Assembly: GCA_947495975.1 (NCBI GenBank)
Contig: CANMBE010000006.1
Span: 64,951-128,950, forward strand
Source: Ignavibacteria bacterium
Lineage (GTDB): Bacteria > Bacteroidota > Ignavibacteria > Kapaibacteriales > Kapaibacteriaceae
Reading direction: 5' to 3'
DNA length: 64,000 nt
Part shown: positions 58,908 to 61,193 of the stretch, in pieces
Numbering within the stretch: the first letter of the stretch is position 1
How the letters are laid out: every line of letters begins with the position of its first letter
The notes under the pieces: generated by a model
What the model was told of the DNA's origin: nothing
Database searches by the model: none
Seen by the model: only the letters and a program-made list of their open reading frames with translations
Made by a program: the position numbers and the translations under genes

Positions 58908-58944
58908 CGCCCGGTCCTTGTAAGAGGATCGGGCGTTTCTTTTT
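58908..58944 (+). terminator. Rho-independent terminator after groEL
   Basis: A 10-base stem CGCCCGGTCC/GGATCGGGCG (one G-T wobble) with an 8-base loop TTGTAAGA, followed by a T-rich tract (TTTCTTTTTC). It lies 23 bases after the stop. Confidence 0.9.
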
Positions 58945-58975: not shown

Positions 58976-59644
58976 ATGTTATACGTCGACGCGCTCGCAC
59001 AACGCCGCTCTGCAAGTCAGAACGTGGCCTCGCTTGTCAACATTCGTGTCACGGCCTCAATGGAGGTCTTTGAAACGGATGGAATATGTACTGTTGGTCT
59101 GCATCCGTGGGATGTAACACAAGATTGGCGAGACGCACTTGACATTGTTGAGGAGTTAGCATCAGAAGAACTTGTGCTGGGCATTGGCGAATGTGGACTC
59201 GATAGACAATGCAACGCGTCGTGGATACATCAGATTGATGCATTCGAATATGCCGCAGATCTTGCTGAACGTGTTTCAAAACCACTCATGGTACATTGTC
59301 TAAAAGCGCACGATGAACTCTTGAGGGTACATAAGTTTATCGATCCGTTGCAACCGTGGATACTTCATGGATTTGTGAAGGGGGCTGACCTAGCCCGCCA
59401 ATTTCTCGATACTGGAATGACACTTTCATTCGGTTCGGCAGTGCTAAAAGAGTCTGCCTCTTTAGTAGAAGCAATTCGCATTTGCCCGTCTGAGAGAATT
59501 TTACTCGAGACTGATTCTCCTGACGTTCTCATTGAAGACATCTACGCTGCTGTTGCAGCGATACGTGGCGTGTCCATTGATGAGTTATGTGAAGCGCTGC
59601 AAAAGACGTTTGAGAAGACATTCATTCGCGATCAGCTTTCATGA
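58976..59644 (+). CDS. TatD-like metal-dependent hydrolase with degenerate N-terminal site
   Basis: 222 residues of the short TatD-type family common in Bacteroidota. GLHPWDV, GECGLDRQ (Glu), MVHCLKAHDELL (His), ILHGFVKGA (His) and LLETDSPD (Asp) are present. The first metal site, usually DxHxH, reads VDALAQRRS, so both histidines are missing and activity is doubtful. Its stop overlaps the next gene start (ATGA), placing it in an operon with the MnmL-like oxidase and MnmM. Confidence 0.85.
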   Translation: MLYVDALAQRRSASQNVASLVNIRVTASMEVFETDGICTVGLHPWDVTQDWRDALDIVEELASEELVLGIGECGLDRQCNASWIHQIDAFEYAADLAERVSKPLMVHCLKAHDELLRVHKFIDPLQPWILHGFVKGADLARQFLDTGMTLSFGSAVLKESASLVEAIRICPSERILLETDSPDVLIEDIYAAVAAIRGVSIDELCEALQKTFEKTFIRDQLS

Positions 59645-60630
59645 AGTGTGTTCATGTTGTGGGCTTTGGACTTGCTGGTGCTTTACTTGCATGGGAGTTG
59701 CGTAAGCTTGACGTAGATGTCTCCATTGTTGACCTCGGTGAAACGGAAACCTCGTCGCATGTGGCGGCAGGTATGATCACTCCAGTAACCGGCAGAAGGC
59801 TAAAGCCAACATGGCGATGTGCAGAACTCACAGAAGTTGCGCACAGCGTTTATGGAGAGATTGAAACGGCACACAGTATTGAGCTATGGACAGAGTGGGC
59901 GCTGCGCCGCGTGTTCCGTGAGGAAGTTATGGTTGAGTGGTTTCGTGAGCGCTTACAGCGTGGAGAATATGAGCCCCTTACCGTTAATGAAATCCTGCCT
60001 GGTTTTCACGACGACGTTGAATATCCTTTCGGTGGATTTAGCCATGATGGCGTTGCTACAATAAACATTCCACTCATGATTGAAACGTTGCGGAAGACAA
60101 TGGAGATAACGGCATTGGGAAGTGGTGGTAATGCAGATGTCACTGTTCATTGCACTGGATACCGAGCGCATACTGACGAGCTTTGGTCGTGGTTACCGAT
60201 CGAACCTTCAAAAGGCGAGATTCTTGATGTCACAATTCCTGGTTTGCATCTTGATCACGTGTTAACGAACGGAACATGGTTACTTCCGATAGGGGGAGAG
60301 CAATATCGCATAGGCGCAACACATGATTGGGATGATCATGATCCTCAACCAACAGAAGACGGTAAACGTCGTCTCCTCCACGCGGCTCAACAACTCGTCA
60401 ATCGAACAATCATCGTGGATAAGCACCGCGCAGCAATACGCCCCTCAACAAAGTTCAAACGTCCGCTTGCAGGTTTTCATCCTCTCGATCCAACTCAGGC
60501 GGTATTTAATGGCCTTGGCACAAAGGGAGCGTTACAAGCACCGTGGGCAGCCAAACAGCTTGCTCGGCACATTGTGTTGGGTGAGCCCCTTGATCACGAA
60601 ATTGATATTCAGCGTTGGTGGAAGTTGTGA
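59641..60630 (+). CDS. FAD-dependent (DAO-type) oxidoreductase, MnmC(o)/MnmL-like
   Basis: 329 residues. FAD-binding loop VGFGLAGALLAWEL near residue 6, followed by SSHVAAGMITPVTGRR, and the C-terminal block FNGLGTKGALQAPWAAKQ is the DAO-family FAD closing motif. The C-terminal GLGTKG is also the conserved motif of MnmC oxidase domains. Its stop overlaps the next gene, an MnmM-type methyltransferase. Known MnmL (YurR) and MnmM (YtqB) act one after another on the tRNA wobble uridine; the order here suggests the same pair, as an inference. Confidence 0.78.
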   Translation: MKCVHVVGFGLAGALLAWELRKLDVDVSIVDLGETETSSHVAAGMITPVTGRRLKPTWRCAELTEVAHSVYGEIETAHSIELWTEWALRRVFREEVMVEWFRERLQRGEYEPLTVNEILPGFHDDVEYPFGGFSHDGVATINIPLMIETLRKTMEITALGSGGNADVTVHCTGYRAHTDELWSWLPIEPSKGEILDVTIPGLHLDHVLTNGTWLLPIGGEQYRIGATHDWDDHDPQPTEDGKRRLLHAAQQLVNRTIIVDKHRAAIRPSTKFKRPLAGFHPLDPTQAVFNGLGTKGALQAPWAAKQLARHIVLGEPLDHEIDIQRWWKL

Positions 60631-61193
60631 TCTATGAAAATGCCGTCACGTTTGTGCACCGAGTCTTGCGAGACGTGATTGTGCCCGGCTCGGTAGTGAT
60701 AGATGCCACGATCGGAAATGGGTGGGACACAGCGCTAATGGCTAGGCTTGTTGGTGCTGAAGGCATGGTGTATGGATTTGATATCCAACCAATCGCACTC
60801 GAGGTCACAAAGACACGCCTAACGAACGTGGCAGCCCAAGTGCGACTCATGCTCACTGGCCACGAAGAGATGCTGCAAATGGTAGAGAAAGAGCATCAAG
60901 GCAAAGTAAAAGCAGTAACGTTTAACCTTGGCTATCTACCAGGCGGGGACAGGGACATTACTACTCAGGTTGAAACCACAAAGCGTGCAATCGAGCAAGC
61001 GCGTAGACTATTGGCACCTGATGGAGTCATCACAATCGTCTGCTACAGGCACGCCGAAGGTCAACGTGAACTTGATAGCGTTCGAGCTCAGCTGTCTGAG
61101 TGGTCGCAGGAGTTCAACACGTGCACTGAAACAATTTTCTTGAACCAAGCTGGGAATCCTCCGGTAGTTTTTGTTGTTATTGCAAAAGTCTAA
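60627..61193 (+). CDS. mnmM: MnmM-like class I SAM-dependent methyltransferase (YtqB/PF06962)
   Basis: 188 residues from a GTG overlapping the previous stop (GTGA). The SAM motif VIDATIGNGWDTALMARLVG, then FNLGYLPGGDRDITT and RRLLAPDGVITIVCYRHAEG, are the conserved blocks of the YtqB family, whose B. subtilis member methylates 5-aminomethyluridine in tRNA. Coupled directly to the MnmL-like gene, which would supply the substrate. Confidence 0.88.
   Translation: MIYENAVTFVHRVLRDVIVPGSVVIDATIGNGWDTALMARLVGAEGMVYGFDIQPIALEVTKTRLTNVAAQVRLMLTGHEEMLQMVEKEHQGKVKAVTFNLGYLPGGDRDITTQVETTKRAIEQARRLLAPDGVITIVCYRHAEGQRELDSVRAQLSEWSQEFNTCTETIFLNQAGNPPVVFVVIAKV

Follow-up and report, generated by a model that had tools for sequence, protein, structure and literature searches.

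The DNA analysed here is a stretch of 64,000 nucleotides from an Ignavibacteria bacterium (assembly GCA_947495975.1, contig CANMBE010000006.1, positions 64,951 to 128,950), called the window in the following. It contains three plus-strand open reading frames (ORFs) in an overlapping series, coding for a TatD-like protein, an oxidase dependent on flavin adenine dinucleotide (FAD) and a methyltransferase (Table 1). The stop codon of the TatD-like gene and the start codon of the oxidase share the four bases ATGA (59641-59644), and the oxidase stop shares GTGA (60627-60630) with the GTG start of the methyltransferase at 60627. Both four-base overlaps are as described in the first-pass annotation of this DNA. 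The mechanical TTG start of the methyltransferase at 60615 would lengthen the second overlap to 16 bases, and the TatD-like gene, which starts with ATG, has an alternative GTG 3 bases further upstream. We will argue that the oxidase is, with good probability, a stand-alone enzyme for 5-carboxymethylaminomethyluridine at the wobble position of tRNA (cmnm5U34) that is coupled to the methyltransferase MnmM, and that the two genes would form a counterpart of the fused enzyme MnmC.

Table 1. Features at the locus, in window positions.
Feature	Positions	Strand	Details
Terminator-like hairpin	58908..58935	+	12 pairs (8 G-C) and a T-rich tail; lies behind groEL and bounds the gene set upstream
TatD-like gene, 222 aa	58976..59644	+	PF01026 132.1 bits, covering positions 43-252 of the 253 in the profile
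FAD-dependent oxidase, DAO / glycine-oxidase fold, 329 aa, ATG start	59641..60630	+	PF01266 77.9 bits
Predicted MnmM, tRNA 5-aminomethyl-(2-thio)uridine methyltransferase, 188 aa from GTG	60627..61193	+	NF053511 187.9 bits; PF06962 130.5 bits
Glutathione-peroxidase-like gene, 178 aa	61210..61746	+	PF00255 135.2 bits

The methyltransferase exceeds the cut-off of the curated MnmM model NF053511 (187.9 vs 135 bits), in agreement with its first assignment to the YtqB/MnmM type, and it matches the solved YtqB structures PDB 8h0s (E 4.4e-34) and 8h1a (E 5.1e-33). The residues D34, N101, Y104, Y141 and H144 of MnmM are linked to U33/U34 binding and catalysis in a passage of the 2023 MnmM paper (PMC9976899). 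With positions taken from the alignment to the solved YtqB entries, all five are present in the window's protein; among its relatives D, N and Y141 occur in 50 of 50, and Y104 and H144 in 49 of 50. Two lysines are exchanged, K110 for arginine and K11 for histidine (60657-60659), the latter also in 40 of the 50 relatives. K11, which is not a feature of the curated model, touches U33 in the B. subtilis enzyme, and the activity of the K11E variant is very low, as stated in a passage of the same paper (PMC9976899). From the curated family membership and the conserved catalytic residues we infer that the protein is MnmM and methylates 5-aminomethyluridine (nm5U34) to 5-methylaminomethyluridine (mnm5U34).

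The oxidase had first been described as MnmL-like, an identity that can be ruled out, as the protein is a flavoenzyme of the DAO family (PF01266) while MnmL is YtqA, a radical S-adenosylmethionine (radical-SAM) enzyme from a different protein family. The name MnmL was reportedly given to YtqA by Jaroch et al. in 2024; we take the two to be the same by joining published passages, and TIGR01212 is likewise assumed to be the YtqA (MnmL) model. As to the published passages, one in PMC12245174 assigns ytqA to the radical-SAM family, with Jaroch et al. 2024 as its source for a role in the synthesis of 5-methylaminomethyl-2-thiouridine (mnm5s2U), and a table in PMC12548931 lists MnmL with reference 33, which is Jaroch et al. 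2024.

The oxidase family resembles both the oxidase part of MnmC (MnmC(o), or MnmC1) and the glycine oxidase ThiO: in a diverse alignment, each of the 33 members has a match to both models at E <= 0.001. The oxidase carries the signature GLGTKG at residues 291-296. The glycine at residue 293 is found in 57 of 60 family rows, in 6 of 6 MnmC rows and in 0 of 8 ThiO rows; the lysine or arginine at residue 295 is found in 60 of 60, 6 of 6 and 0 of 8, respectively. All eight ThiO rows have their own pattern at 293-295 (Y/H, R, H/N). This C-terminal signature (G293, K/R295) is our own reading from six MnmC references, with no published definition, and the eight ThiO rows consist of five references located beside thiamin genes and three ThiO-type paralogs, one of which was scanned. 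An aligned arginine, R267 in the window, is common to the family (60), MnmC (6) and ThiO (8) rows. Judged by these residues, the oxidase bears the C-terminal signature of MnmC(o) and not that of ThiO, and its proper label should be MnmC(o)-like.

The AlphaFold2 prediction of the oxidase (mean predicted local distance difference test score 94.1, predicted template modelling score 0.92) is closest among solved folds to CmiS2 (Z 33.3), followed by glycine oxidases (32.9), the iminodiacetate oxidase IdaA (31.9) and MnmC (30.3); Foldseek puts IdaA and CmiS2 closest. According to a passage of PMC11284099, CmiS2 releases glyoxylate from an N-carboxymethyl amine via an imine and leaves the amine free. 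This is the chemistry needed on cmnm5U34.

The genome of the window (2.18 Mb in 24 contigs, listed as 100% complete) was searched for the rest of the pathway. MnmG is present (786 bits). Nothing exceeds the cut-off of the MnmC1 model TIGR03197 and no match to the DUF752 (PF05430) methyltransferase domain is found, so a separate complete mnmC, at odds with the two-gene arrangement put forward in the first-pass annotation, did not turn up in this genome. Nor is there anything over the cut-off of the MnmL model TIGR01212. The ThiG model gives one match, at 22.9 bits (with neighbours 23.9, against a cut-off of 23). This protein is a dihydrouridine synthase, with 294.5 bits for PF01207, and no thiazole synthase was found.

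We now turn to the conservation of the gene pair, considering first the order, represented by 123 genomes. Many of these are fragmented, and gene pairs on separate contigs cannot therefore be counted as distant. MnmM is present in 53 genomes (52 over the cut-off), the oxidase in 67 and both in 52, so that the oxidase accompanies MnmM in 52 of 53 cases. In 36 of the 52 genomes with both, MnmM directly follows the oxidase on the same strand, with a gap of up to 171 bases between the matched parts. The coupling is seen in six of eight families (f1 23/23, f3 6/8, f32 1/1, f33 1/1, f35 2/2, f36 3/3) and is absent in f2 (0/9) and f34 (0/5); outside the coupled families the two genes are apart or on different contigs. 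Because it holds in 36 of 52 genomes and in six of eight families, with oxidases that diverge to 36% identity over their full length, the adjacency is more than chance.

A sample of 118 Bacteroidota genomes extends the comparison to the phylum. MnmM is over the cut-off in 20 of them and the MnmD type of methyltransferase (PF05430) in 42, while no genome has both. The oxidase profile reaches at least 180 bits in 61 genomes, a line that, to the disadvantage of the argument, was set after the scores had been seen and with a profile built from the same genomes. A profile match occurs in 56 of the 62 genomes with MnmM or MnmD, compared to 5 of the 56 without. The corresponding Fisher p of 1.5e-20 per genome is overstated because the genomes are related; counted by family, with a single positive member sufficing, the table of the 30 families (16, 3, 3, 8) gives p 0.0045. 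In the window's own tree clade, MnmM (12 genomes) or MnmD (19) is present in 31 of 36 genomes, compared to 31 of 82 others (p 9e-7), and in a second group of 20 rows all 20 have one or the other. Weaker matches were left out (G005, G079 and G086 at 104-118 bits; G018, G073 and G096 at 111-136; G099 at 54), as were second profile matches in genomes already counted. A search with the single sequence gave 56 oxidase genomes, but in three of these (G003, G008, G050) the match was a ThiO-type paralog, beside which the profile search recovered the family member.

The six methyltransferase genomes without a profile match deserve a comment. Three of them (G002, G080, G099) carry MnmL (TIGR01212), in two (G018, G073) an oxidase scoring best with MnmC1 overlaps MnmD by 11 and 4 bases, and in the last (G096) an oxidase with a lower score lies on another contig. 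MnmL is over the cut-off in 5 of the 118 genomes, namely in 0 of the 61 with the oxidase and in 5 of the 57 others; two of these five have neither MnmM nor MnmD.

The overlapping pairs of G018 and G073 belong to family f18. At L230:1401-3276 and L231:1598-3510, respectively, an oxidase with the signature GALGSRG overlaps an MnmD-type methyltransferase whose score (131.8 and 132.5 bits) is slightly below the NF033855 cut-off of 136. Such a pair looks like an MnmC of the other type in split form.

In a tree of 77 rows, the window's oxidase falls in a clade of 40 rows (support 98, starred). This clade, the 20-row group and MnmC (100, starred) join at an open fork, separate from ThiO at support 91, and a tree of 54 rows supports the MnmC side at 92.8. 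The phylogeny suggested in the first-pass annotation thus answers its question in part: the oxidase is not grouped with the ThiO references, while a position on the ThiO side is not rejected by the approximately unbiased (AU) test.

The reaction sequence that we propose is as follows. MnmE and MnmG place a carboxymethylaminomethyl group on the wobble uridine 34, and this would be the first step. Judging from its fold, its signature, its partners and what a structurally close enzyme is able to do, the flavoenzyme would then oxidise the C-N bond of the N-carboxymethyl amine of cmnm5U34 to an imine, hydrolysis of which would yield glyoxylate and nm5U34. MnmM would finally methylate nm5U34 to mnm5U34. 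Coupled translation would balance the amounts of the two enzymes.

A number of observations weigh against this assignment. The oxidase scores higher with ThiO (TIGR02352, 87.5 bits) than with MnmC1 (TIGR03197, 49.1 bits), and both values are far below the curated cut-offs of 250.8 and 174.2. When 21 members, the window's included, are scored singly, ThiO is higher in 12 and MnmC1 in 9, and those leaning towards MnmC1 are mostly in the 20-row group, outside the window's clade, to which the ThiO-leaning ones belong. The AU test on 54 rows leaves the ThiO-side alternative unrejected (p-AU 0.378), and with the window's clade, the 20-row group and MnmC meeting at the open fork, the family defined by the profile does not come out as one clade. 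In the fold comparison the solved glycine oxidases equal or beat MnmC. In family f12 the family member stands beside a ThiO-type gene in divergent orientation (L136, L140, L141). There are also genomes in which the oxidase occurs without a recognised partner: no MnmM is recognised in 15 of the 67 oxidase genomes of the order, of which eight belong to family f4, and five genomes of the phylum sample, all in the window's clade, have neither methyltransferase.

These observations have to be set against the alternatives that they would favour. One is that the substrate of the oxidase is a small amino acid with an N-carboxymethyl or N-alkyl group, in the manner of CmiS2 or iminodiacetate oxidase, and that the enzyme is just co-expressed with MnmM. 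The genomes of the order with an oxidase and no recognised MnmM would be in line with this, as would the Foldseek ranking of IdaA and CmiS2. We nevertheless consider it unlikely, since it leaves unexplained the conserved coupling to MnmM, the co-occurrence with two different methyltransferase families in 16 of 30 families, and the fact that, of the six methyltransferase genomes without a profile match, five have either MnmL or an MnmC(o)-like oxidase coupled to MnmD.

Another alternative is a glycine oxidase (ThiO) that provides iminoglyoxylate for thiazole synthesis and is adjacent to MnmM only incidentally. ThiO gives the best curated score, for the window as for 12 of the 21 members, glycine oxidases are among the closest folds, and the f12 member in divergent orientation beside a ThiO-type gene could be cited in its favour. 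However, the score is far under the cut-off, which none of the 21 members passes, while that of MnmC1 is passed by one (L131 of genome G104, 177.0 of 174.2 bits). That the ThiO model recognises its own kind can be seen from the ThiO-type paralog of G008, which reaches 364 bits; this paralog is adjacent to a family member, and the same arrangement is present in G003 and G050, although only the G008 paralog was scanned (among the f12 neighbours, only the one at L140, with 364 bits). Moreover, the ThiO pattern at 293-295 is present in 8 of 8 ThiO rows, where the family has G293 (57/60) and K/R295 (60/60), and the only ThiG-model match of the genome is the dihydrouridine synthase. The ThiO identity is thus rejected by the score, the signature and the lack of a ThiG in the searched genome, the tree alone not deciding the matter, and we regard it as highly improbable.

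Equally improbable in our view is that MnmM uses nm5U made directly from ammonium by MnmEG, which can carry out this reaction according to a passage of PMC9976899, and that the oxidase serves another step at the wobble uridine or in the anticodon loop, as a TcdA-like gene beside the pair in relatives might suggest; it is just these two steps that are coupled in MnmC, the known precedent, whose MnmC(o) signature the oxidase shares, and MnmL, linked to the same product, is found in 3 of the 6 methyltransferase genomes without a profile match and in 0 of the 61 with one.

The assignment as a cmnm5U34 oxidase coupled to MnmM is hence the one that we prefer for the window. For the phylum, a passage of the 2023 MnmM paper states that the MnmC(o)-like enzyme working with MnmM, or with the orphan MnmC(m) in groups including Bacteroides, was unknown and worth finding (PMC9976899). 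Other passages of that paper state that mnmC(o) is absent in Bacteroides, and that no oxidase-methyltransferase operon was seen when three Gram-positive genomes were compared with E. coli (PMC9976899). Because they co-occur with either MnmM or MnmD, the oxidases spread over the Bacteroidota would be candidates for the missing MnmC(o)-like partner of both methyltransferases. We lean towards a scenario in which they are stand-alone MnmC(o) enzymes that convert cmnm5U34 to nm5U34 in most methyltransferase-bearing genomes, kept while the MnmM or MnmD partner was swapped and replaced by the radical-SAM enzyme MnmL in some lineages. In families such as f4, f14 and f24 they would act without either methyltransferase, and the pathway would either stop at nm5U or go on with a third, unknown tailoring enzyme. 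No third methyltransferase was recognised by eye beside the oxidase in ten loci from genomes without MnmM and MnmD. The family f4 genomes have the oxidase and no MnmM; in G105 (L152) the gene abutting the oxidase is FemAB-like (Pfam 25.3 bits, cut-off 24), and ORFs that look similar by eye abut it in G168 (L200) and G169 (L208).

Relatives of the oxidase were also sought on other types of sequence. The viral contigs gave two pattern matches and no relative. The plasmid collection gave seven weak matches, five of them in Staphylococcus saprophyticus plasmids, and the one that was inspected is a ThiO-type gene within a thiamin operon. The five named relatives on genome contigs are in metagenome-assembled genomes, two labelled Ignavibacteria, two Candidatus Kapaibacterium and one Bacteroidetes. 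A separate case is L154:5050-6180, a second DAO-family oxidase of its genome, located beside an RlmN-like gene (named by eye). It falls outside the oxidase family in the tree, and its match to a model for an aminophosphonate oxidoreductase is weak (90.1 bits vs a cut-off of 632.8).

As to the surroundings of the pair, the hairpin sets the gene group apart from groEL, and on the other side a glutathione-peroxidase-like (GPx-like) gene begins 16 bases past the end of MnmM, making the gene set wider than three genes. The neighbours were surveyed in 21 of the 23 genomes of family f1 (G126 and G129 left out), several of which have short flanks. The GPx-like gene is 3' of MnmM in 20 of the 21, and a TcdA-like gene adjoins the oxidase in 14, located between the oxidase and TatD where the locus extends so far (coordinates in one relative L021:4234-5004). 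Two of the seven loci without it (G127, G136) stop at a contig edge. The one TcdA-like gene that was scanned has TcdA, by its model name a tRNA position-37 enzyme, as its best NCBI model, at 178.5 bits vs a cut-off of 304. The gene order in f1 is TatD, TcdA-like, oxidase, MnmM, GPx, and the window is without the TcdA-like gene at this place. Neither the TcdA-like nor the GPx-like gene was found in eight loci of families f3, f32, f33, f35 and f36, mostly with short flanks.

In seven loci other than that of the window (L145, L147, L148, L021-L023, L025) the GPx-like gene has a 4-base overlap with MnmM. It is possible that its product removes the peroxide made by the flavin oxidase, but its N-terminus, read by eye, resembles a signal peptide. 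TatD is a variable neighbour of the pair, since the TcdA-like gene adjoins the oxidase in 14 of the 21 f1 genomes. In the window's TatD-like protein both histidines of the N-terminal HxH, the metal motif of TatD, are replaced (VDALAQ vs FDAHSH in the relative at L021:3623-4279), and it is doubtful that the protein is a working part of the system. TatD motifs are also damaged in L211, L214 and L217, and the TatD-like gene may be losing its nuclease function in several lineages.

The assignment would have some practical and evolutionary consequences. Since the 2023 MnmM paper, MnmL has been placed in the pathway, yet it is over the cut-off in only 5 of the 118 Bacteroidota genomes, and for most of the rest the oxidase family is a testable candidate, with its 56 of 62 methyltransferase genomes. 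The pair is a compact two-gene system that could be transferred to E. coli lacking mnmC. If the assignment is correct, the parts of the wobble pathway (a flavin oxidase, a radical-SAM enzyme and two methyltransferase families) would be interchangeable.

Finally, it is instructive to compare the pair with the known systems. In the E. coli MnmC (YfcK/TrmC), the methyltransferase MnmC2 and the oxidase MnmC1 are fused and catalyse the same two reactions as proposed here, and the oxidase of the window has the MnmC1 fold (Z 30.3) and the motif G-x-[KR]-G at residues 293-296. It differs in that the genes are separate and overlapping, the methyltransferase is MnmM rather than of the DUF752/MnmC2 type, and the oxidase, of 329 aa, is below the MnmC1 cut-off. 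The B. subtilis enzymes MnmL (YtqA) and MnmM (YtqB) share the methyltransferase family and the proposed overall conversion, but MnmL is a radical-SAM enzyme, whereas the partner here is an FAD oxidase in a genome with no TIGR01212 match over the cut-off. By its predicted members, the window's pair is a hybrid of an MnmC(o)-like flavoenzyme and MnmM and not the MnmL-MnmM pair of B. subtilis; the two-gene MnmC equivalent of the first-pass annotation is upheld in its MnmM, confirmed by the curated model, and in the conservation of the pair as a unit, but not in the identity of the oxidase. ThiO shares the fold, the FAD domain and the aligned arginine (R267) with the oxidase, and differs in the signature, in the score and in the absence of a detected thiazole synthase in the window's genome. 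CmiS2 and IdaA are the closest folds, and CmiS2 strips an N-carboxymethyl group by the same imine chemistry; their substrates are, however, small molecules and their identity to the oxidase is ca 20%. Non-fused MnmC1 and MnmC2 orthologs occur in various bacteria, as stated in a passage of PMC3648344, and the window differs from these in having a divergent MnmC1-like protein coupled to MnmM. A pairing of a flavin oxidase with MnmM did not turn up in a literature search that did not include Jaroch et al. 2024, the most relevant paper. Stand-alone MnmC1 proteins are known, and what may be new here is the coupling of an MnmC(o)-like flavin oxidase to MnmM.

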